Below, piece after piece: positions 4,549 to 19,112 of a stretch of DNA of 46,746 nt. A program made the position numbers and the translations under genes. This DNA comes from Chitinophagaceae bacterium (GTDB taxonomy: Bacteria > Bacteroidota > Bacteroidia > Chitinophagales > Chitinophagaceae): contig JABFRU010000004.1 in assembly GCA_013140985.1 (NCBI GenBank), forward strand, positions 1 to 46,746, written 5' to 3'. Numbering within the stretch: position 1 is the stretch's first letter; the number at the start of each line of letters is the position of its first letter. The notes beneath the pieces are model-generated. The model did no database searches. It was given only the letters and a program-made list of their open reading frames with translations, and was not told where the DNA came from.

Positions 4549-7500
4549 TTAAAAATCCAATCCCATTGCAAAATAATATTTCGGCTTGCCCCTGAAAATG
4601 CCATCCATTTCCCAACCTGCATCAAAGCGGAGGAAATAGCCAAGTAATGTACTTCTGGCGCCAAATCCATAGCCACCGGCAAAAGGGCCCACACCACCTG
4701 TCCTTACTTTTACCTGAACAGGAGGAACGCCATAAGTAACGGAAGGCCGTTTCAATTTATTATAAGCGCCATTCCATGCAGTGCCGAGGTCAATGAACTG
4801 AACGATCTGGAAATTTCTCAGGAAGGCATTATTGATCGGTTTGTTTAATAAAGAAGCAAACACAGGAACTCTCACTTCACTGTTTATCACCAGAGCATTG
4901 TTGCCATTAGCCACATTTTGTATAAAGCCCCGCAGGTTTACAGCGAGAGATTGATAGGCATAATTGCCATCTGCTGCCGGAACAGGGTCAGGGTTGAAAT
5001 ACCGGTAGCTTACATTACCATTATCATCCTCTTTACGGTTTTGACCAAACATCAGCCAGTTGTCAACACCACCCAGGTAATAAACGAATTTTTCTTTGCC
5101 CCATGAAAAATCACCGGCCGCTCTTACCGCCCAAATGATATTGCGATAGATCTGTAAATAATGGCGGGCATCAAAACCCACATTCATGGTGAATGGATGA
5201 TCCTGGCTTTTTGTGAGACCTACTTTTTTACTTACCTGTGCATTTATATCTACATATACTTTCCAGCGAAGACCAAACCAGATATTAGTAGCAGGAGTGA
5301 TGGCATCATCATGCACATATTCAAGATGAGCCAATGCATAGTTGAGCTTCCTGTCATTAACTTTTAAAGAAAGGGAGTCAGTAAGCAAAGTGGCAAACTT
5401 ATCTCCCCGGTAAGCTATGTTCAACCGGAGGCTTTGTATCCGTGTAAATGGATAGGTAAGAGATAACTGGTACAGGTTGGTGTAGATCTTGGTAAGTGGG
5501 GTGTATAATATATTGCCAAGCACAGTATCGGGCCCTGACACTTTTTGGGCTGTTCTGTAATAAGTCAATCCGAAATCAATTCTTTTTTTCAGGTATTGGG
5601 TTGATAATACGTACTCCTTATTGTTCAGGTCGGGGCTGATACGGAATCCGCCGGCAAATTTCCAGTCTTCAAACAGGTCAGAGGTGCCTACACGAATGAT
5701 ACCATTAAAAGGATCACCATTGCTTAATTGTATAGGTCCTGCGCCTCCGGCATAAGGTTGAAAACGGCTTACCAGTACATTATTATTAAAACCACTTACG
5801 AGATAATCATTGAAAAACTTCGGTGGCCTGTATTCAAACACTTTGGCTTTTTTCAACACAGATTCTTTTACTACCTCCTGTCCCTGCACCACATTGCCGA
5901 GTTTGCTTTGATTATTTTTCACTGTATCATCAGCAAATCCGCTATTGAAGAAATCATTTTGCTTTTGCGTCAATGTATCTGATTTGGGAACAAAGCTGGA
6001 AGCTTTACCTGCTGCTTTCTTTTCTTCCTCAATTAATTTTTTAACGTATTCTGTTGGCCGGGCTGTTTTATTCCGGCGTTTCAATGTGGCCTCATCTACT
6101 TTCAGGCGATACAATAATTTCATATCGCCGAGTTTTACTACTTCACTCACCTGCTGGTTGTCGCCGGCCGTTCTTGTTTCTAATAAACTGCTTTGATAAT
6201 TGGTCAACGGGAATACATAAGATGAATCCAGTGTAACAGACACATAGCCTACTGAATCAATATCCGTTTTCTTCCATTCTTTCAATAAACTGTCCACATC
6301 TTTTCGTTCAGGATTGCGAAGCACTTCATCGCCGATAAAGATCAGCGTATCCAGCCCCGCTCTTTCGGTGGTAAAGAAACCGGCATAGCGGTTATTGATA
6401 CCATTCTCATCGCTGACAAATGTAAAATGCGATTGATTGTATTGTGATGGATAACGGGCATTCCCATATTTAAGGTCAGAAAGCTTGGAAATTTGTTTGA
6501 ACTCAGATTTATTCCAATTATCAACCAGGTAAATATTGAAATGACGACCCGGTAATGAATCATCACTGCTTAAAGCCTGCGCTGTAGGACGATTGCTGGC
6601 ATACAAAATGCCGGTACGGTTTGGAAAAGCTACAAAAGAAGGATCAAGATCATCATATACATCATTAGTGACCTGCTCAAAGGTTCCCTTGTCTATTTTA
6701 TAGACATAAATATCTGTTTGGCCGCTTCTCACAGCGCTTAATAAAAGTGTGTTGGCATCCAGCATGTATTTCATGTCCTGCACCTGGTCAAACATATCCC
6801 ACTCCTGTTTCCAGAGTTTGTTATGATTGACAAGATCATATACAAAGAATTTTGTTTTGCCTTCATCGTTATACAAAACAGCCAGCCTTGTTCCTTTGCC
6901 ATCCCATGCCAGTATTGGATAAACGGGATACAATTCTGTTTCCCTTGAACGTACTCCCAGTTTCACCAGCACTTTCCGGTTCACAAAATTTTCAACCAGC
7001 ACAATTTGATAACGACCCTGCTTGAATTCCACATACGCATACGTATAGCTGCGGGGCATCGGGTTGGCATTAAAACGGATAAAATCTTTTTTGCCGATCT
7101 CTTCACTGATGGATAACTGGCCCTTGGGTGAATTGCGGCGGCCACGGATATCTTTAAAATAAGCCTGTGGCATTTCGGTCATAAAATCTTCGAGCAGCAG
7201 TTTGAATTTCTTTTTGGCTATTTTATTCGAAGCATTGTTCAGGCTGCGATAAATGCGGGCTAAATAGAGAAAATAAGTCGTTTTGCTTTTACCGAATTTA
7301 TCAGCAACATACTTCCAAAAAGCATGACCGGCCAGCAACGGTTTTTCATAAGCAAATGCATAGAAGTTTTTATAATCACTTGCCAGCATGGCGGAACGAA
7401 GATCATCATCCAGCGACGTATTCCAGTTCTCAGCAGCATATTCAATATAGCCATCCGTCATCCATTTGGGGAGATCAAGCAATGCCTGGTTGGCAGCAAA

Positions 7501-7974
7501 CTCACCCAGGTCATCACCAAACAAAACATTATCCACTAAGATCTTTGCAATACCTTGTCGTATTTGACGTCGAAGATTTTCATGGTTGCCGTCAAAATAA
7601 ACGATCATTTTATTGTTCACCAGTTTGGTAACGCCACCGGTATTCTGCCAGTCAATACCCAGCCCGATATTGGACTGTTGCATCTCATCATAATTATTAT
7701 AAATAACAATATTGGCCCGGCGCTGTAAACCGTATTCTACAAACTCTTCAATGGAAGGAAGCTCTTCTTCGGCTATTTGCGCCACATATTTTCCAAGACC
7801 CAATCCATCCTGGCTGAAATAGGAATTGAAATTATCAGTTTGATAATATTTCCAGCTGAACTTTTGATACTGGATGCGGTTCTTTCCAAACTCCACGGTG
7901 TTTACTTGTGCCGCCGTTTCCATAGCCATGAAAACAGAAAGGCAAACGATCATCAGGCTTGATACTCTCTTCAT
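4549..7974 (-). CDS. Large secreted protein: peptidase MA-like N-terminus, TolB-type propeller, C-terminal outer-membrane barrel
   Basis: The 1141-residue protein has a signal peptide (residues 1-22, ending ETAAQ). Residues 30-270 look like the peptidase MA-like domain often found in such proteins (IVIYNNYDEMQQSNIG, RRQIRQGIAKILVDN, LPKWMTDGYIEYAAE), but the region has no HExxH zinc motif. Residues 280-560 contain beta-propeller repeats of the PD40/TolB kind (for example LDPSFVAFPNRTGILYASNR). After a linker rich in Lys, Ser and Thr, residues 720-1141 have alternating strands with the final aromatic residue of an outer-membrane barrel (YYFAMGLDF), similar to BamA/TamA surface antigens. The role is unknown; location would be the outer membrane with a periplasmic propeller. 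It is a single gene with its own terminator. Confidence 0.75.
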   Translation of the reverse strand: MKRVSSLMIVCLSVFMAMETAAQVNTVEFGKNRIQYQKFSWKYYQTDNFNSYFSQDGLGLGKYVAQIAEEELPSIEEFVEYGLQRRANIVIYNNYDEMQQSNIGLGIDWQNTGGVTKLVNNKMIVYFDGNHENLRRQIRQGIAKILVDNVLFGDDLGEFAANQALLDLPKWMTDGYIEYAAENWNTSLDDDLRSAMLASDYKNFYAFAYEKPLLAGHAFWKYVADKFGKSKTTYFLYLARIYRSLNNASNKIAKKKFKLLLEDFMTEMPQAYFKDIRGRRNSPKGQLSISEEIGKKDFIRFNANPMPRSYTYAYVEFKQGRYQIVLVENFVNRKVLVKLGVRSRETELYPVYPILAWDGKGTRLAVLYNDEGKTKFFVYDLVNHNKLWKQEWDMFDQVQDMKYMLDANTLLLSAVRSGQTDIYVYKIDKGTFEQVTNDVYDDLDPSFVAFPNRTGILYASNRPTAQALSSDDSLPGRHFNIYLVDNWNKSEFKQISKLSDLKYGNARYPSQYNQSHFTFVSDENGINNRYAGFFTTERAGLDTLIFIGDEVLRNPERKDVDSLLKEWKKTDIDSVGYVSVTLDSSYVFPLTNYQSSLLETRTAGDNQQVSEVVKLGDMKLLYRLKVDEATLKRRNKTARPTEYVKKLIEEEKKAAGKASSFVPKSDTLTQKQNDFFNSGFADDTVKNNQSKLGNVVQGQEVVKESVLKKAKVFEYRPPKFFNDYLVSGFNNNVLVSRFQPYAGGAGPIQLSNGDPFNGIIRVGTSDLFEDWKFAGGFRISPDLNNKEYVLSTQYLKKRIDFGLTYYRTAQKVSGPDTVLGNILYTPLTKIYTNLYQLSLTYPFTRIQSLRLNIAYRGDKFATLLTDSLSLKVNDRKLNYALAHLEYVHDDAITPATNIWFGLRWKVYVDINAQVSKKVGLTKSQDHPFTMNVGFDARHYLQIYRNIIWAVRAAGDFSWGKEKFVYYLGGVDNWLMFGQNRKEDDNGNVSYRYFNPDPVPAADGNYAYQSLAVNLRGFIQNVANGNNALVINSEVRVPVFASLLNKPINNAFLRNFQIVQFIDLGTAWNGAYNKLKRPSVTYGVPPVQVKVRTGGVGPFAGGYGFGARSTLLGYFLRFDAGWEMDGIFRGKPKYYFAMGLDF

Positions 7975-8022
7975 AATTCTTTAATCGGTCTTTTTTATTG
8001 TTTGGCAGCCGGCTTTGGTAAT

Positions 8023-8115
8023 TCTTTTCATCGATTGTTGCGTCGCATGCTGACGCTTTGGTCAGCATCCCGACAAGCTTCGCTTCGTCGGGACCCTTCA
8101 TCGTCCTGTAATCCT
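8023..8115 (-). repeat. REP-like double-hairpin element, copy 3
   Basis: Reverse-strand copy of the element at 262-355. Its core is identical to copy 1 through both stems and the GCGACGCAA tail, with flanks also related (GGACGATGA on one side, CGATGA on the other). It lies in the divergent gap upstream of the 1141-residue protein and of the MBL-fold hydrolase. Confidence 0.8.
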
Positions 8116-8229
8116 GCTCATCATATTTTCAGGCGGAAAATACAATTGGTGATAAAGACTTTACCTTTATTTCCAATTAATCCGGATAAATCTGGAAAAT
8201 CTTGGTTCTAAAATTACGGAAAACCATCC

Positions 8230-8874
8230 ATGTTAAACGTTATCTCATTCACTTTTAGCCCCGTCCAGGAGAATACGTATGTTTTGTATAACGAACAGAA
8301 GCAATGCTGCATTATTGACCCCGGCTGTTATTTTCCGGAAGAAAGGGAAGAATTAAAAACGGGCATTGAAAAGACAGGCCTGACGCCGGTTTTGCTGCTT
8401 AATACTCATTGCCATTTGGATCATGTATTTGGGAATAAGTTCATACATGAAACATGGGGGCTTTCCCTCCATTTACATGAAAAAGAAAAGCTGGTCCTCG
8501 ATTTTGCCCCGCAGGCAGGCGATATGTGGCAGCTTCCTTTCGACAACTTCGAAGGGCCATTGGTTTACTTGAAGGAAGGGAATACTATAAAAATAGGTGA
8601 CGAAGAGTTGGAGATACGTTTTGTTCCCGGTCATTCACCAGGCAGCATTGCTTTTTACCATGAAGCCGGTGGGTTTATTATCGGGGGCGATGTCTTATTT
8701 AATTTAAGTGTGGGCAGGACCGATCTGCCCGGCGGTGATTTTGATACATTGGTCAACAGCTTACAGACCCAATTCTTCACTTTGCCGGATGAAACCAAAG
8801 TGTATTCAGGTCATGGACCAATAACAACAATTGGATTTGAGAAAATGAACAACCCTTTCGTAAAATTGTATTAG
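8230..8874 (+). CDS. MBL-fold metallo-hydrolase (glyoxalase II-like, YcbL type)
   Basis: The 214-residue protein has the metallo-beta-lactamase metal motif NTHCHLDHVFGN (HxHxDH) near residue 58-63. The further His ligand is in VPGHSPGSIAFY, the bridging Asp in IIGGDVLFNLSVGRTD, and the last His in YSGHGPITTIG. The short length without the extra C-terminal glutathione-binding domain of full GloB matches the YcbL subgroup. Substrate is probably a thioester or similar small molecule. It likely forms an operon with the 81-residue membrane protein: a second copy of its last codons ends in TAA directly abutting that gene's ATG. Confidence 0.88.
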   Translation: MLNVISFTFSPVQENTYVLYNEQKQCCIIDPGCYFPEEREELKTGIEKTGLTPVLLLNTHCHLDHVFGNKFIHETWGLSLHLHEKEKLVLDFAPQAGDMWQLPFDNFEGPLVYLKEGNTIKIGDEELEIRFVPGHSPGSIAFYHEAGGFIIGGDVLFNLSVGRTDLPGGDFDTLVNSLQTQFFTLPDETKVYSGHGPITTIGFEKMNNPFVKLY

Positions 8875-8883
8875 CGGAGTCGT

Positions 8884-8950
8884 AACCCCCTCTCCGCAAG
8901 GGGTTCCCGAACATAGTGTAGGGAAGGAGCGTAGCTCGTGGGGTGAGGCC
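8884..8950. repeat. GC-rich palindromic element, copy A (long form)
   Basis: On the reverse strand it begins GGCCTCACCCC and ends GGAGAGGGGGTT, the same ends as the element inside nuoL at 30163-30200. Between them is about 45 bp with further GC-rich palindrome (AACCCCTTGCGGAGAGGGG). It is bracketed by two versions of the MBL gene's 3' end. Confidence 0.65.
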
Positions 8951-8952
8951 GC

Positions 8953-8991
8953 GTTTGAAAGATGAATAACCCTTTTGTGAAACTGTATTAA
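8953..8991 (+). pseudogene. Second copy of the MBL hydrolase 3' end (about 10 codons)
   Basis: The sequence from TTTGA (8953) through TAA 8989-8991 corresponds to the last codons of the MBL gene at 8836-8874, both encoding KMNNPFVKLY-stop. The two copies differ at nearly every wobble position (AAA/AAG, AAC/AAT, TTC/TTT, GTA/GTG, TTG/CTG, TAG/TAA) yet give the same peptide. The downstream copy abuts the next gene's ATG and is therefore likely the ancestral end; the intact gene now ends at the upstream copy. Confidence 0.75.
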
Positions 8992-9237
8992 ATGAGCAAC
9001 TTACAATCAGCCGGTCTTATTCTTTTTTTGTCGATCGCTGCGGCTGCTCTTTTTTTCTTATGGAAAATATTTAGCATCACCTTCCCGCATTGGAAATGGA
9101 GAGAAGATCATTTTGGACGGCAGATAAAAGGAAAATTGACAAGAGAAGAATGGAGTAAAGTAAAAAAATACCGGCTTTATTTCTTTTTGAGTATCGTCGC
9201 AGGATTGATTGTATTTATTCTTTTGTCTTTGCTTTAA
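8992..9237 (+). CDS. Small membrane protein, 81 aa
   Basis: There are two membrane helices, residues 7-27 (GLILFLSIAAAALFFLWKIF) and 64-81 (YFFLSIVAGLIVFILLSLL), joined by a basic loop with FPHWKWREDHFGRQIKGKL and REEWSKVKKYR. I do not recognise the family. The ATG directly follows a TAA that closes the duplicated MBL 3' end, showing an original operon. It converges with the flippase gene; the two stop codons overlap at 9234-9237 (TTTAAG region). Confidence 0.7.
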   Translation: MSNLQSAGLILFLSIAAAALFFLWKIFSITFPHWKWREDHFGRQIKGKLTREEWSKVKKYRLYFFLSIVAGLIVFILLSLL

Positions 9238-13157: not shown

Positions 13158-13610
13158 ATGAGGGCAGTAATTCAAAGGGTGACCAGCGCCAGTGTAACAA
13201 TAGAAGGGAAGGTTCATGCTTCTATAGAAGATGGACTGCTTGTGCTGCTGGGTATTGAAGATGCAGATACGGACGAGGATATTGAATGGCTTTCCGGAAA
13301 GATCGTTAACCTCAGGATCTTTAATGACAATAACGGGGTAATGAATATTTCTATCCGGGAAGCCGATGGAAATATACTACTGATCAGTCAGTTCACTTTG
13401 CATGCTTCAACAAAAAAAGGAAACCGGCCTTCTTATATCAAAGCCAGTAAACCGGAGATTGCTGTTCCATTGTATGAAAAGATGATACAACAGCTTTCAA
13501 AAGATATGGGAAAGATCATCAAGACCGGGATATTTGGCGCTGATATGAAAGTGGAATTGCTGAATGACGGACCGGTAACAATAGTAATTGATTCTAAGAA
13601 CAAGGAATAA
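13158..13610 (+). CDS. dtd: D-aminoacyl-tRNA deacylase
   Basis: The 150-residue protein has the family's N-terminus MRAVIQRVTSASVTIEGK, the catalytic SQFTLHAS motif, the GNRPSYIKAS segment and the C-terminal NDGPVTI motif that forms the cross-subunit Gly-cis-Pro site. Dtd removes D-amino acids and Gly mischarged on tRNA. Length is that of the family. It is divergent from arfB and precedes the GxxExxY cassette by 1 bp. Confidence 0.95.
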   Translation: MRAVIQRVTSASVTIEGKVHASIEDGLLVLLGIEDADTDEDIEWLSGKIVNLRIFNDNNGVMNISIREADGNILLISQFTLHASTKKGNRPSYIKASKPEIAVPLYEKMIQQLSKDMGKIIKTGIFGADMKVELLNDGPVTIVIDSKNKE

Positions 13611-13611
13611 T

Positions 13612-13642
13612 AACACGAATTTCAAACGAATTACACGAATTA
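13612..13642 (+). repeat. Left terminal inverted repeat of the GxxExxY cassette
   Basis: The 31-bp arm (ACACGAATTTCAAACGAATT, then ACACGAATTA) includes the first base of the gene's ATG. It pairs with 14014-14043 with about 27 of 30 positions matching. Confidence 0.85.
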
Positions 13643-14016
13643 TGGAAAATATCATACTAAAAGAGGAGTCTTACAAAATAGTGGGAGCTTGTATGGAAGT
13701 CCATACACAGTTGGGCATGGGATTTAAGGAAGTAGTTTACAAGGATGCATTGGAAATTGAGTTTAAGAAAATTGAGATACCGTTTAAAAGAGAACAACAA
13801 TATAAAATTGAGTATAAAGGGATAATACTAGCTCATAAATACTATGCGGATTTTATTGTTTATGATAGTATCATACTTGAAGTCAAATCATCAACATTCA
13901 TTGTCAATAGTTTTGTAGCGCAAACTATAAACTACCTTAAAGCTTCAGGATTAAAATTGGGAATTATTGCAAACTTCGGAGAGAAATCGTTTGTTTCTAA
14001 GAGAGTAGTATTTTAA
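13642..14016 (+). CDS. GxxExxY protein (PD-(D/E)XK nuclease-like)
   Basis: The 124-residue protein carries the family motif G-x-x-E-x-x-Y as GFKEVVY, preceded by ACMEVHTQLGMG, and the nuclease-like core ADFIVYDSIILEVKSS where D, E and K fit D-Xn-ExK of the PD-(D/E)XK superfamily. The family has a patchy distribution; its function is unknown to me. The ATG at 13642 overlaps the left inverted repeat and the TAA at 14014-14016 overlaps the right one, so gene and repeats form a unit. A start at 13588 would overlap dtd. Confidence 0.85.
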   Translation: MENIILKEESYKIVGACMEVHTQLGMGFKEVVYKDALEIEFKKIEIPFKREQQYKIEYKGIILAHKYYADFIVYDSIILEVKSSTFIVNSFVAQTINYLKASGLKLGIIANFGEKSFVSKRVVF

Positions 14017-14382: not shown

Positions 14383-14495
14383 AGAATACAATAATTTTTT
14401 AAAGGAATTGGTTTACCAACGGTCTTCAAGGGGCAGGGAGCAGTTTAACGCCAAGAATCATGCTAAATTGCAGAATAGATTCAAAATTATTTGTT

Positions 14496-14822
14496 ATGAC
14501 TATCCAGGAAGCGCAACAACAAGTAGATGGTTGGATCAAAACAACCGGTGTTCGTTATTTCAGTGAATTGACTAATATGGCCATGCTGACGGAAGAGGTA
14601 GGAGAGCTGGCCCGTATCATGGCCCGCACTTATGGTGATCAATCTTTCAAAGAAAGTGATAAGAATAAGAACATCGGCGATGAAATGGCTGATGTTCTTT
14701 GGGTCTTATTATGTCTCGCCAATCAGACAGGTGTTGACCTGACCGATGCTTTAAAAAAGAATTTTGAAAAGAAAAATAGCAGGGATGCTGACAGGCATAG
14801 GAGTAATGAAAAGCTGAAATAG
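14496..14822 (+). CDS. MazG-like nucleotide pyrophosphohydrolase
   Basis: The 108-residue all-alpha protein has the EEVGELARIMAR motif (E-E-x-x-E) and GDEMADVLWVLLCLAN (E-x-x-D), which together bind Mg2+ in the dUTPase/MazG NTP pyrophosphatase superfamily. It cleaves NTPs to NMP and PPi. The single-domain length matches MazG-like iMazG proteins. The ATG at 14496 is the usual start; an in-frame ATG at 14460 adds an unsupported extension. It lies upstream of the gasdermin operon but is separated from it by 200 bp. Confidence 0.85.
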   Translation: MTIQEAQQQVDGWIKTTGVRYFSELTNMAMLTEEVGELARIMARTYGDQSFKESDKNKNIGDEMADVLWVLLCLANQTGVDLTDALKKNFEKKNSRDADRHRSNEKLK

Positions 14823-14950
14823 CTTTGGCATCTCTCCTGGAGATTCTCTCCGGCAAAAGAATAGTTTTTTAAATAAAAAAAATTTATATTTATTTCGGAT
14901 TCGGTTCGATCAAATGATCGGATTGTGCCAAAAACAAGTTGAGAGGTGTC

Positions 14951-14982
14951 TTTGTGATCCTCCACATAATCTAGGGTATAGG
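14951..14982 (+). promoter_or_regulatory. Weak candidate promoter of the protease-gasdermin operon
   Basis: TTTG at 14951-14954 and TATAGG at 14977-14982, with a 22-bp spacer, loosely resemble -33 TTTG / -7 TAnnTTTG, but the -7 lacks the TTTG half. The TATAGG lies inside the left arm of an inverted repeat. The gap 14823-15023 has no gene; this is the best promoter I see. Confidence 0.3.
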
Positions 14983-15007
14983 CCCATTCGTGGTGTCCTG
15001 TACCCTA
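14972..15007 (+). promoter_or_regulatory. 11-bp hairpin in the leader of the gasdermin operon
   Basis: Arms TAGGGTATAGG (14972-14982) and CCTGTACCCTA (14997-15007) pair at all 11 positions in RNA (one G-U) around a 14-nt loop. The structure ends 16 bp before the first ATG. It could be an operator or an RNA hairpin that affects translation. Confidence 0.5.
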
Positions 15008-15023
15008 CTTTTAACCTTATTCA

Positions 15024-16718
15024 ATGAATTTCGCTTTTCAATTCCCCATAATTGATCTGCGCCAGGCCATACAAGCCGGCGAAACTTTAAATGCATGGCC
15101 TTCTGCTGATATGACAAAGGCACAGGTTGATGAGCTGATGTCAAAAGCCCCTTTCATAAAAAATTTTGGAAAAATAGAGAGTGGCCCTGCCGGTTATTTC
15201 TGTAATATAAATTGTATCAACTCCAGTATGCTGCAGGATAACGGCTTTCGCATAAAAGTCGCTGCGGGCGGCTATATGAGCCTTTATGTTGAAAAGATGG
15301 TTACAGTCTTTAACAGCTATAAGCGTTTATATGCAGACGGAGTTTATACTACTAAAACTGAATTTGGCTTTAAAGATCAGCTCGAATCCATGCTTGAGTA
15401 TGCTACACCGGATCAGCCTGTACATATATCGGATGTATTGACTCATTATATGTCCATGCCACTGGATGTGCAGGATATGTCCATAACAAATACGGATGAG
15501 GTCAGTAATTGGATAACAATAAAATTAAGCGACCTCGGTCCTGTATTGGCAAAAAATTATTGCCGGGCCACCACGAAAAAAGATAAGCCTGCGGCTGATG
15601 AGTTTGTTGTAAATGGAGAGGCTTGCATAACACTTGCATTTGCTGACAATAAGGATATCGTATTGCCTGCTAATGCTGAAAAGCTGGATCAGTTTGATAT
15701 TGCCGGCAATACCGTGCAGCTGTATGGGTATAAACTGAATTTTGAAGATCATAGTTTCAAAGTTTGGCTGTTTCAGTTGCCCAAACTGGATCTATTAATG
15801 TTACCCGCAACAGATCTTGAACTGCGGAACAGGCGCATGAACCTGTTTCGCCTGAATGCTGAAAAAGAGACCATGCGTATATTGGTCAATGGACTTGACC
15901 CGGAAAATGCCGACCAGGGTGTAAAAAAATACATTAAAAAAACACCGATAAAAATATTTAAGAAGGAACGCTTTTCCAATTCGCAGGATGCTGTACGCAA
16001 TTTTGCCCTGCAAAGTGCGAACGATAAAGTACAATTTACACTTGATGACATCAGGAAAGTATTAGATGAGTACGGCCTGGACAACCTGAAAAACCTGGAG
16101 CAGAATATGAAGACTGCTCCAAAGAAGAAAACCATTTTGTTCATTACTTCCAATCCAACCGACAGCAATCCGATCGATTTTGGTGAGCAATTCAAAAAGA
16201 TTGATGAGGCTTGGCAAAGGGGATCTGACCGGGACTATTTTACATTGCTGAATATTAAAGCCGGTGTGGAGAGGAACAAGGTCATGGAAATACTATACAC
16301 AAACGAACCGGACTACCTGCATATTACCCTTCATAATTCTGAGATAAAAGGTCTTTATTTCCAGGATGCTGCTAAAAATCCTGATCCCATGCCGCCGGAA
16401 GAATTTGCAGTATATATTCAAACGCTTACCGAACAAAAAAAACCGGAGGCGGTAATTCTCTGTGCCTGCAACACATTGGACCATGCCACCGCCATAAAGA
16501 AATTTTGCAATTATGCTGTAGGTACAAATTATGTATTCCCTGATGATGCCGCAGTAGCCTACGCCAATAATTTCTATACGGCCTTATTCAGTGGTAAGAA
16601 AGTGAGTTTTTGCCACCAGGTCGCCGTGGACAATATAAGATTTAGCAAGCCTCCTTTCTCAGCAGGTAAAGATGCTCCCGAAGTATATAAAATATTGCAA
16701 CTAATTCAGCCATCCTAA
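15024..16718 (+). CDS. CHAT-domain (caspase-like) protease, putative gasdermin activator
   Basis: The 564-residue protein has a C-terminal CHAT domain from about 367: KKKTILFITSNPTDSNP opens it, the catalytic His is H437 in YLHITLHNSE (position of the second His in the usual HFSGHG), and the catalytic Cys is C482 in VILCACNTLDHA. The end matches CHAT proteases: AVAYANNFYTALFSGKKVSF. The GHG glycines are replaced by LHN, which is unusual. Residues 1-365 are soluble, with strands and helices, several Cys (YFCNINCINSS), and I do not recognise the fold; it is likely a sensing or regulatory domain. The gene is 12 bp upstream of the gasdermin-like gene. In bacterial gasdermin operons such proteases cleave the pore former. 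Confidence 0.85.
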   Translation: MNFAFQFPIIDLRQAIQAGETLNAWPSADMTKAQVDELMSKAPFIKNFGKIESGPAGYFCNINCINSSMLQDNGFRIKVAAGGYMSLYVEKMVTVFNSYKRLYADGVYTTKTEFGFKDQLESMLEYATPDQPVHISDVLTHYMSMPLDVQDMSITNTDEVSNWITIKLSDLGPVLAKNYCRATTKKDKPAADEFVVNGEACITLAFADNKDIVLPANAEKLDQFDIAGNTVQLYGYKLNFEDHSFKVWLFQLPKLDLLMLPATDLELRNRRMNLFRLNAEKETMRILVNGLDPENADQGVKKYIKKTPIKIFKKERFSNSQDAVRNFALQSANDKVQFTLDDIRKVLDEYGLDNLKNLEQNMKTAPKKKTILFITSNPTDSNPIDFGEQFKKIDEAWQRGSDRDYFTLLNIKAGVERNKVMEILYTNEPDYLHITLHNSEIKGLYFQDAAKNPDPMPPEEFAVYIQTLTEQKKPEAVILCACNTLDHATAIKKFCNYAVGTNYVFPDDAAVAYANNFYTALFSGKKVSFCHQVAVDNIRFSKPPFSAGKDAPEVYKILQLIQPS

Positions 16719-16730
16719 ACTATTAATTTT

Positions 16731-17522
16731 ATGTCAACTGCTCAATCTCCACTAACAAACCTTGGATTTAACATGGTTGCCTGGCCAAAAACAGGCATTC
16801 AGCCATTAGCCTTATTATATAAGACTGACAAAGGCGTAAGTGCAGTAGAGTCCGACGTGGAAGAATTGTTCAAGCCCGGAGATGCTACAATACCGCGAAT
16901 AAAATCAGGAATAGCTACGGATATAAAGGGCGCTGCAGGATTAACATTTGATGCAAAAGGCGGTATAAGCATGCTTGACTGGTTGCTTAATAAACTACAC
17001 CTGGGAAAAATGAATGCCAATGTAAACCTTAATAACAGTTATGAAGTTACCGTGTCATATCTTAATGTAAGGGAGGATAAAATCAGCCTGCTGTCACTTG
17101 ATAATTTTATCACTACTGCAAAGCCCGATCTGAATGGCTTTAACACCTTTAAAGATAAGCTGCAGAATAATGAACTGTATGTTATCAATGCTGTGGCAAA
17201 GAGCAATGATATTTCTGTTACCATCGCTGATAAGAATGGCCAGGATGTTAGTCTTGACGCAACGGTCAAAGGCATTATGGGTATTAATATGAGCGCTGCC
17301 CGGAAGCAAAATAATGCGATCGAACTGGTATATAAAACGTCCGAGGATGAACCATTGGTATTCGCCTTTAAGGCTCAGAGGATCATTTATGATGCTCCGG
17401 GTTTTTGGAGTGGGGGACCAGGAAGTTTTCGTATCAAGGACCAGGTAGGTGCTGTATTAATGGGACCCGAAGATCTCCCCACAAAGCCATTACAAACAGG
17501 GAGTGACCTGGTGGAGATATAA
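16731..17522 (+). CDS. Bacterial gasdermin-like pore-forming effector
   Basis: The 263-residue protein looks like bacterial gasdermins: GFNMVAWPKTGIQPLALLYK near residues 12-31, VEELFKPG, then a TFDAKGGISMLDWLLNKL stretch and INLDNFI-like SLLSLDNFITTAKP. A FAFKAQRIIYDAPG motif around 211-224 precedes a short C-terminal tail (DQVGAVLMGPEDLPTKPLQT). In known family members a protease removes such a tail and the N-terminal part forms membrane pores that kill the cell. There is no Cys anywhere, so the N-terminal palmitoylated Cys of described members is absent. Assignment rests on pattern recognition and on the adjacent caspase-like protease; a structure prediction would confirm it. Confidence 0.8.
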   Translation: MSTAQSPLTNLGFNMVAWPKTGIQPLALLYKTDKGVSAVESDVEELFKPGDATIPRIKSGIATDIKGAAGLTFDAKGGISMLDWLLNKLHLGKMNANVNLNNSYEVTVSYLNVREDKISLLSLDNFITTAKPDLNGFNTFKDKLQNNELYVINAVAKSNDISVTIADKNGQDVSLDATVKGIMGINMSAARKQNNAIELVYKTSEDEPLVFAFKAQRIIYDAPGFWSGGPGSFRIKDQVGAVLMGPEDLPTKPLQTGSDLVEI

Positions 17523-17624: not shown

Positions 17625-19112
17625 ATGGCAAATGATTCTAACAGGTTCCAGGCAATTATCTCTCATGCAAAAGAGTATGGCTTTGTTTTTCCCAGCAGCG
17701 AAATATATGATGGCCTGCAGGCGGTATATGATTATGGCCAGTGGGGCAGTGAGCTGAAAAAAAATATCAAAGATTACTGGTGGGAGAGCATGACCCGCAT
17801 GTATGAGAATATTGTGGGTATCGATGCGGCCATTTTTATGCATCCAACTACCTGGAAAGCTTCGGGGCATGTTGATAATTTCAACGACCCGATGATCGAT
17901 AATAAGGACAGCAAGAAGAGGTACAGGGTTGATCATTTGATTGAAGGGTATGCGGAAGAACAATCGGCAACAGGCAATGAGCAATTGGCAAAAGATGTCC
18001 TTGCTCAGATGGATGCTTTGTTAGCTAAAGATGATTTTGCCGGATTAAAAAAATTAATTGAGGATAATAAAATAAAATGTGCTGTCAGCGGTACAGCCAA
18101 CTGGACAGATATCCGTCAGTTCAACCTCATGTTCTCAACAGAGTTTGGATCTACGGAGTCTTCCGAAATCCCCCCTTCGGGGGGTGGGGGGGCTAATAAA
18201 GTTTATTTAAGACCCGAAACGGCACAGGGCATCTTTGTCAACTTTTTAAATGTGCAGAAAACAGGAAGAATGAAAATTCCTTTTGGTATTGCACAGATCG
18301 GTAAAGCATTTCGTAATGAAATTGTGGCAAGACAATTCATTTTCAGGATGAGAGAATTTGAACAAATGGAAATGCAGTTCTTCATTCAACCCGGGACACA
18401 AAAACAATGGTATGAATACTGGAAAGAAGAAAGACTGAAATGGCATTTAGCATTAGGTTTTGGAAAAGAACAGTATCGTTTTCATGATCATGTCAAATTA
18501 GCCCATTATGCAGATGCAGCCTGCGATATTGAATTCAATTTCCCGATCGGGTTCAAAGAAGTGGAGGGTATTCACTCAAGAACAGATTTTGACCTGAAGC
18601 AACACCAGGAATACAGCAAAAAGAAAATGCAGTATTTCGACAATGATATTGATCCGGCTACTAATAAACCTTACGGTAATTATATTCCCTATGTGATCGA
18701 AACATCTATTGGCCTCGACAGGATGTTCTTATTGGTATTGAGTGCTGCTTATGAGGAACAAGATCTGAGTACCCCGGAAAAGCAAGACAGCCGTGTGGTA
18801 TTAAAATTCCCTGCAAAACTGGCGCCGATGAAATTGGCTATCCTGCCATTACTTAAAAAGGATGGGCTACCGGAGATCGGAAGAAAATTAATGGATGATT
18901 GCAGAACTTCTTTCCGTTGCTTTTATGAAGAGAAAGATGCGATCGGCAAACGTTACCGCCGGATGGATGCGATCGGTACCCCTTTTTGTGTTACGATCGA
19001 TCACCAGACAAAAGAAGATAACACTGTTACGATCCGTTATCGGGATACGATGCAACAGGAAAGGATACCATTGGATAAGGTGAAAGAGATTGTACAAGCG
19101 GCCATCATGTAA
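17625..19112 (+). CDS. glyS: Glycyl-tRNA synthetase (class II, alpha2 type)
   Basis: The 495-residue enzyme is the single-chain type. It has GHVDNFNDPMIDNK, the conserved VYLRPETAQGIFVNF, motif 2 as FRNEIVARQFIFRMREFEQMEMQFF split around the Arg, motif 3 as IETSIGLDRMF, and a C-terminal anticodon-binding domain. Residues about 172-192 carry an insertion (SSEIPPSGGGGANK) produced by a GC-rich palindromic element in frame, just before VYLRPETAQ. The start at 17625 (ANDSNRFQAIISHAKEYGF) matches the family. Reaction: charges tRNA-Gly in the cytoplasm. Confidence 0.93.
   Translation: MANDSNRFQAIISHAKEYGFVFPSSEIYDGLQAVYDYGQWGSELKKNIKDYWWESMTRMYENIVGIDAAIFMHPTTWKASGHVDNFNDPMIDNKDSKKRYRVDHLIEGYAEEQSATGNEQLAKDVLAQMDALLAKDDFAGLKKLIEDNKIKCAVSGTANWTDIRQFNLMFSTEFGSTESSEIPPSGGGGANKVYLRPETAQGIFVNFLNVQKTGRMKIPFGIAQIGKAFRNEIVARQFIFRMREFEQMEMQFFIQPGTQKQWYEYWKEERLKWHLALGFGKEQYRFHDHVKLAHYADAACDIEFNFPIGFKEVEGIHSRTDFDLKQHQEYSKKKMQYFDNDIDPATNKPYGNYIPYVIETSIGLDRMFLLVLSAAYEEQDLSTPEKQDSRVVLKFPAKLAPMKLAILPLLKKDGLPEIGRKLMDDCRTSFRCFYEEKDAIGKRYRRMDAIGTPFCVTIDHQTKEDNTVTIRYRDTMQQERIPLDKVKEIVQAAIM
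18165..18195. repeat. GC-rich palindromic element, copy B, in frame inside glyS
   Basis: The hairpin CCCCCC-TTC-GGGGGG (18170-18184) with a second G run GGGGGGG (18186-18192) resembles the other copies. It adds about 10 residues (IPPSGGGG) to GlyRS between two conserved segments. Confidence 0.65.

Follow-up and report, generated by a model that had tools for sequence, protein, structure and literature searches.

A gasdermin gene behind a CHAT protease gene with an unnamed N-terminal domain: a putative abortive-infection module in a Chitinophagaceae genome

Introduction

What do two closely spaced genes do between mazG and a tRNA synthetase gene, and what would set them off? The question arises in a 46,746-nucleotide stretch of a Chitinophagaceae bacterium (assembly GCA_013140985.1, contig JABFRU010000004.1, positions 1 to 46,746; hereafter the window), where two open reading frames (ORFs), 15024–16718 and 16731–17522, follow each other 12 bp apart. 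A first reading made from the sequence alone (the sequence-only reading) had described them as a CHAT protease followed by a gasdermin-like protein, with their own leader and an antiphage function; its coordinates and its spacing proved exact. We find that both proteins have recognizable relatives of these kinds, and we read the pair as a probable two-gene module in which the protease would activate the gasdermin, its N-terminal domain serving as the putative sensor. A 2022 text (PMC9079055) counted the way in which bacterial gasdermin systems react to invaders among the unknowns. All window genes described below lie on the forward (+) strand.

The gasdermin and its predicted cleavage site

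The second gene (16731–17522) encodes a 263-residue protein that, judged by three sets of models or sequences, is a bacterial gasdermin. The NCBIfam equivalog model NF051890 scored 159.6 bits against a cut-off of 100, and the PADLOC model bGSDM (PDLC02986) scored 171.5 bits (E-value 5.5e-51). A single-sequence search of the PDB returned 7n51 (6e-14) and 8sl0 (1e-13), followed by 9v2s and 7n52 at about 1e-3. A profile built from four related gasdermins (A1) retrieved five PDB sequences, all named as gasdermins (7n50, 7n51, 7n52, 8sl0 and 9v2s), with the next match at 0.26. The gasdermin-like assignment of the sequence-only reading is thus upheld.

Passages of PMC9612521 and PMC9079055 place the cuts of bacterial gasdermins after leucine or arginine, about 20 residues before the end, and that of the Runella gasdermin after Leu247, with glycine as the next residue. 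A [VIL]LxG site occurs exactly once in each of three gasdermins, those of the window and of two related loci described below (L023 and L024), reading VLM-G, VLR-G and VLL-G, respectively, and leaving 19, 20 and 19 residues C-terminal to the bond. Because the Runella-type cut lies about 20 residues from the end and the lone VLxG site of the window protein is found there, we predict from the alignments that cleavage would occur between Met244 and Gly245 (codons 17460–17465), with a 19-residue C-terminal peptide beyond. Runella-type systems likewise have a gasdermin adjoining a caspase-like protease, a short C-terminal tail and a glycine-containing candidate site some 20 residues before the C-terminus (passages of PMC9079055; PMC9612521; PMC10989679), whereas the window gasdermin differs from them in lacking cysteine. 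The pair also makes a compact two-gene test case: its candidate cut site is specified, and its gasdermin lacks a cysteine for a lipid.

The CHAT protease and its N-terminal domain

The ORF list, the database matches and the alignments divide the 564-residue product of the first gene (15024–16718) into an N-terminal domain and a C-terminal, caspase-like CHAT domain at about residues 366–564 (16119–16718). In a single-sequence search, residues 371–540 matched PDB entry 8tl0 (E-value 9e-8), and a two-row profile of the protease (A2) raised this match to 6e-12; PADLOC chat (PDLC02988) matched at 1.1e-10. His437 (codon 16332–16334) and Cys482 (codon 16467–16469, context ACN) align with one histidine and one cysteine of 8tl0, which we take to be the catalytic pair of CHAT and caspase proteases, and both are retained in the L023 protease. 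Both the CHAT assignment and the predicted catalytic residues of the sequence-only reading are borne out. The only significant solved match, 8tl0, is a SAVED-CHAT protein, and SAVED domains bind cyclic nucleotides. It likewise places an N-terminal input domain before CHAT, but the match is restricted to the CHAT side, and passages of the corresponding paper (PMC11417357) name no gasdermin.

The pairing of a CHAT protease with a gasdermin is already known. Both window genes match the PADLOC pair of bGSDM and chat. In PMC9612521, the Figure 2 legend lists CHAT as one of the caspase-like proteases found in gasdermin operons, and the PADLOC chat model aligns with the L023 protease over its whole length (1–546, 350 bits), so that the library already contains this architecture; the window pair is therefore of a known kind. 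According to passages of PMC12881547, Podospora anserina likewise has a gasdermin clustered with a CHAT protease that activates it; that two-gene system differs in being fungal, and its protease is named with TPR repeats, not with the N-terminal domain of the window protein.

This N-terminal domain (15024–16118; profile match to residues 1–346) is the proposed sensor or input module. Residues 1–365 matched nothing in Pfam or NCBIfam and, when the domain was searched alone, nothing in PADLOC up to an E-value of 1; as the L023 domain alone scores 225 bits there, this marks the window domain as a diverged member. A five-row profile gave a best PDB E-value of 1.9, and PHROGs returned only matches of 0.05 and weaker. 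A literature search that included passages of PMC8195603 turned up no description of the domain, though the primary bacterial-gasdermin papers may describe it.

Relatives of the domain in proteins lacking CHAT were found in seven cases: in G1085, in Nitrosomonas, Streptomyces and Rhizobium plasmids, and in G494, G546 and G990. Together with the window and L023 proteases they make nine proteins. The domain was matched in 2 of 335 genomes of the class (the window's and G1085) and in 5 of 376 of the order (the window's, G527, G494, G546 and G990); the genome samples used throughout (395, 394, 348, 335 and 376 genomes) overlap one another. When the nine proteins, 1598 locus ORFs and 1598 shuffled copies were searched with a profile of the seven CHAT-less proteins, the window protease was matched over profile positions 1–332 of 353 (domain E-value 1.9e-19) and the L023 protease at 1.8e-58; up to an E-value of 10, the profile matched only the nine proteins or their copies and fragments. 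Pairwise, the window domain resembles most of the seven only weakly: direct BLAST reached the Streptomyces protein (5e-14), G494 (2e-4) and G990 (0.001), and none of the other four at 0.01. The one protein gained from further plasmid searches with L080, L083, L082, L091, L085 and L093 was that of Rhizobium; L093 itself matched nothing. PADLOC chat matched in 17 of 348 genomes of the order. Its hits at profile positions of about 10–158 were rejected as N-terminal domains, being mostly CHAT, as hmmscan of two confirmed; the 15 other chat genomes, with neighbours read to 1.5 kb, were dropped from the count of N-terminal domains.

In all nine proteins the domain measures about 350 residues and stands at the N-terminus, while the C-terminal parts vary; the seven without CHAT span three phyla. 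TIR and EAD11 are common domains in immune proteins. The C-terminal part of the G494 protein matches Pfam TIR_2 (61.3 bits, cut-off 28) and that of G990 matches EAD11 (63.5 bits, cut-off 26). A match to the PADLOC candidate family PDC-M14B is seen in the C-termini from Nitrosomonas (30.2 bits) and Rhizobium (18.3 bits), and the Streptomyces and G1085 proteins have hydrophobic ends. The G546 protein (L092) shows by eye a D...ExK nuclease-like pattern at its C-terminus, a nuclease reading that searches of Pfam, NCBIfam, PADLOC and PDB sequences did not support. A membrane-helix reading of four hydrophobic C-termini was also judged weak on their 19-residue Kyte-Doolittle maxima (L082, 2.03; L085, 1.53; L083, 1.34; L080, 1.13).

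Since the N-terminal part is common while the C-terminal parts differ, domain-fusion logic suggests, as the simplest reading, an input (sensing) module whose outputs can be exchanged. On balance we lean towards regarding these roughly 350 residues as an unnamed infection-sensing domain of several phyla with at least three to four outputs: CHAT with gasdermin, TIR, an EAD11 adaptor, a possible nuclease and a hydrophobic C-terminus. A less probable alternative, which nonetheless deserves attention, is that the domain acts as a scaffold or an inhibitory domain and that the true sensor is another host protein. Its lack of a match to any known family or solved sequence suits such a role, and the conserved stretch around LRNRRMNLFRLNAEKE could serve assembly; the presence of one N-terminal part in nine proteins with differing C-termini speaks for the input module instead. 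A domain common to gasdermin-, TIR- and EAD11-type proteins would offer a handle on the trigger: should two of these proteins that differ in output answer the same phage signal, the search for that signal could use whichever protein is easier to work with.

Several genes were noted beside these relatives. An annotated DNA methyltransferase and a TnsA-like nuclease lie near the Nitrosomonas copy, an annotated restriction endonuclease near the Rhizobium copy, and a cytosine methyltransferase, recognized by eye, near the G1085 copy. The protein that joins the domain to TIR adjoins a 1684-residue protein with CHAT, DUF7379 and TPR-S (L091 7448–12501; the stretch ends within it).

The proposed module and the site it occupies

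We consider, with a probability of roughly 0.7, that the pair is an abortive-infection (pyroptosis-like) module of two genes. On this model an infection signal would be sensed by the protease's N-terminal domain, which would release the CHAT domain, and the protease (His437/Cys482) would then cut the adjacent gasdermin near Met244/Gly245. This cut would strip the 19-residue, putatively inhibitory tail, and the freed gasdermin would form membrane pores and kill the cell ahead of phage maturation. Sensing, cleavage, the cut site, pore formation and the phage trigger are steps that we infer, as is the antiphage function that the sequence-only reading had proposed.

Several observations weigh against this reading. 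The Pfam CHAT model gives no match to the window protease up to an E-value of 1 and scores 23.9 bits on the L023 relative, just under its 24-bit cut-off. The glycines flanking the histidine, GHG in 8tl0, are replaced in the window (LHN) and in L023 (LHA). The VLxG pattern covers three of the six tailed gasdermins and is absent from L025, L021 and L022, the nearest motif in L025 being ILPG, 13 residues from the end. While passages of PMC9612521 describe the majority of bacterial gasdermins with a palmitoylated N-terminal cysteine, the window gasdermin has zero cysteines, and the palmitoyl-cysteine of most members is therefore impossible here. This pair is confined to the window and G527 in the samples of 395, 394, 335 and 376 genomes. 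The G+C contents of its two genes (0.41 and 0.42) are close to those of the flanks (0.39 and 0.42), and a Pfam scan of nine flanking ORFs found no recognized defence gene.

The site itself bears on the trigger. In the window, mazG (14460–14822) and a class II tRNA synthetase gene read as glyS (17625–19112), both assigned by Pfam and by comparison with same-genus loci, form the left and right borders, with 2805 bp from the mazG stop codon to the glyS start. A glyS search of 41 same-genus genomes matched 36 and gave 30 loci, one of them the window's own. Flanks of up to 1.5 kb were fetched for the other 29, of which 21 contain mazG in that stretch and 8 do not, with L053, L072 and L075 reaching a contig end. 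The mazG–glyS gap, its length extrapolated from the mazG match, is 23–57 bp in 15 of the 21 loci and 376–1117 bp in the remaining 6. None of the 29 loci, within these flanks, contains a match to the gasdermin or the protease. A single-sequence gasdermin search covering 41 other genomes of the genus produced only one weak match (G023), rejected as a gasdermin because it lies in a 363-residue protein that looks MlaD-like by eye. Because most comparable relatives have almost nothing in this gap, the operon is likely to be acquired cargo between mazG and glyS. The sequence TTTGCGCCC lies directly 5′ of the glyS start in the window, L065, L068, L069 and L070, and a search for repeats at the cargo edges yielded nothing convincing.

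It is unlikely, in our judgement, that the pair is a lysis switch for a use unrelated to phages, such as stress death or the release of material by a subpopulation, with the same chemistry and another trigger. The flanking ORFs without a recognized defence gene would fit such a switch, and PMC13236601 reports that a CARD-NLR-like immune system is required for the release of gene-transfer agents in Caulobacter. The patchy presence in the genus, as seen by single-sequence search, and the cargo-like site suit defence better, and the N-terminal domain is fused elsewhere to TIR and EAD11.

The mazG–glyS site may receive inserts repeatedly. The six loci with a longer gap are L050, L051, L052, L058, L073 and L074, and the L050 insert opens with a reading frame that looks nucleotidyltransferase-like by eye.

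Gasdermin relatives and their neighbours

Matches above the NF051890 cut-off were obtained in 3 of 395 genomes from the phylum and in 8 of 394 from the family, giving 10 distinct loci, the window's included and the below-cut-off matches in G172, G711 and G524 excluded. The sequence-only reading had proposed looking for the pair in other Chitinophagaceae, and one more genome of the family, G527 (L023), carries it: protease (6636–8276) and gasdermin (8287–9099) lie 10 bp apart, in the order and strand of the window. The window and G527 proteins are 42% identical in the gasdermin, 44% in CHAT and 26% in the N-terminal domain. In G638 (L024), a SIR2-CHAT protein, with SIR2 assigned by Pfam and CHAT by similarity to that of the window, overlaps the gasdermin end. 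In G505 (L025 1–672), a SIR2 protein beside the gasdermin is interrupted by the contig end, with any CHAT outside the visible part. G829 (L021 9087–12959) has a 1290-residue amidase-C14 protein beside its gasdermin, with a GDSL match below the Pfam cut-off, and G759 (L022 9002–12874) has a 90% identical counterpart. No relative of five tested proteases was found within 12–19 kb of the gasdermin in G146, G150 and G796, and the G708 gasdermin sits 47 bp from the contig start. By neighbour, the ten loci thus comprise two with a CHAT protease, one with SIR2-CHAT, one with a SIR2 fragment, two with amidase-C14, three with none found and one at a contig edge.

For the sequence-only reading, homologues without a protease neighbour would have spoken against the pairing. 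Three of the ten loci are of this kind, but they belong to a separate, tailless branch. The gasdermins of G146, G150, G796 and G708 form this branch with support of 100/99; they are 14–20% identical to the window protein and measure 233–234 residues without a C-terminal extension, against 258–277 residues in the six with a protease-type neighbour (one of these being the SIR2 fragment). As the tailless orphan branch is separate, it provides no argument against protease control of the tailed gasdermins. On the tree of ten gasdermins, the four neighbour types require three changes, the minimum, and an equally low number arose in 0 of 200 shuffles; this tree has ten rows, with two of its seven inner branches well supported and three open, and the long C14 and orphan branches may join falsely. 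That the CHAT protease is degenerate or has another target, the gasdermin being activated by another route, is the least probable alternative: the lost glycines around the histidine, the silent Pfam CHAT model and the three loci of the separate branch with no protease found close by favour it, yet His and Cys are retained in both proteases, that of the window and that of G527, at 44% CHAT identity, the window and G527 share adjacency and gene order, and neighbour type agrees with gasdermin branch.

The separate-branch gasdermins (L017, L018, L026 and L027) end in LVTD(N/D/G)RxxF and are possibly regulated without cleavage. In L024, the reading frame at 6942–8405 encodes the SIR2-like domain fused to CHAT and is followed by a protein that looks NTPase-TPR-like by eye. 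The below-cut-off matches to the gasdermin model (L028 8235–8993, L029 7755–8612 and L019 7600–8520) have starts that look by eye like signal peptides or lipoboxes, and are possibly exported gasdermin-like proteins. The L028 match adjoins a WD40-like C14 protein, and the L029 match an exported protein that appears subtilisin-like by eye, in which Pfam named no peptidase.

Searches of other collections returned few relatives. A single-pattern scan of genome contigs with A1, which gives no measure of overall frequency, found one locus; its DNA proved to be that of L025 as the reverse complement. Single-protein pattern scans of viral contigs found no relative of either protein, and phages gave no match to the L023 protease or the L080 protein. 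The window gasdermin had no plasmid match, and the L023 gasdermin had a distant one (Gloeothece, 1e-3). The window protease matched 26 plasmid records; among the 20 listed, matches start only at residue 314, that is, on the CHAT side.

Leader and flanking genes

The leader that the sequence-only reading had assigned to the pair is present as a 201-bp interval from the mazG stop to the protease start (14823–15023), but its support from promoter and terminator scans is weak. Sigma-70-type sites in it are no commoner than chance, and no terminator-like site was found in the terminator scan. TANNTTTG occurs once in the leader, where it overlaps the stop codon of mazG; across the window this motif is less frequent than chance. 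On the other side, 102 bp separate the gasdermin stop from the glyS start. The Pfam families of the flanks are D-Tyr-tRNA deacylase, PD-(D/E)XK superfamily, MazG, class II tRNA synthetase, cupin and pyruvate:ferredoxin oxidoreductase. The PD-(D/E)XK-superfamily protein (PDDEXK_3 by Pfam) is encoded at 13588–14016, about 0.4 kb upstream of mazG.

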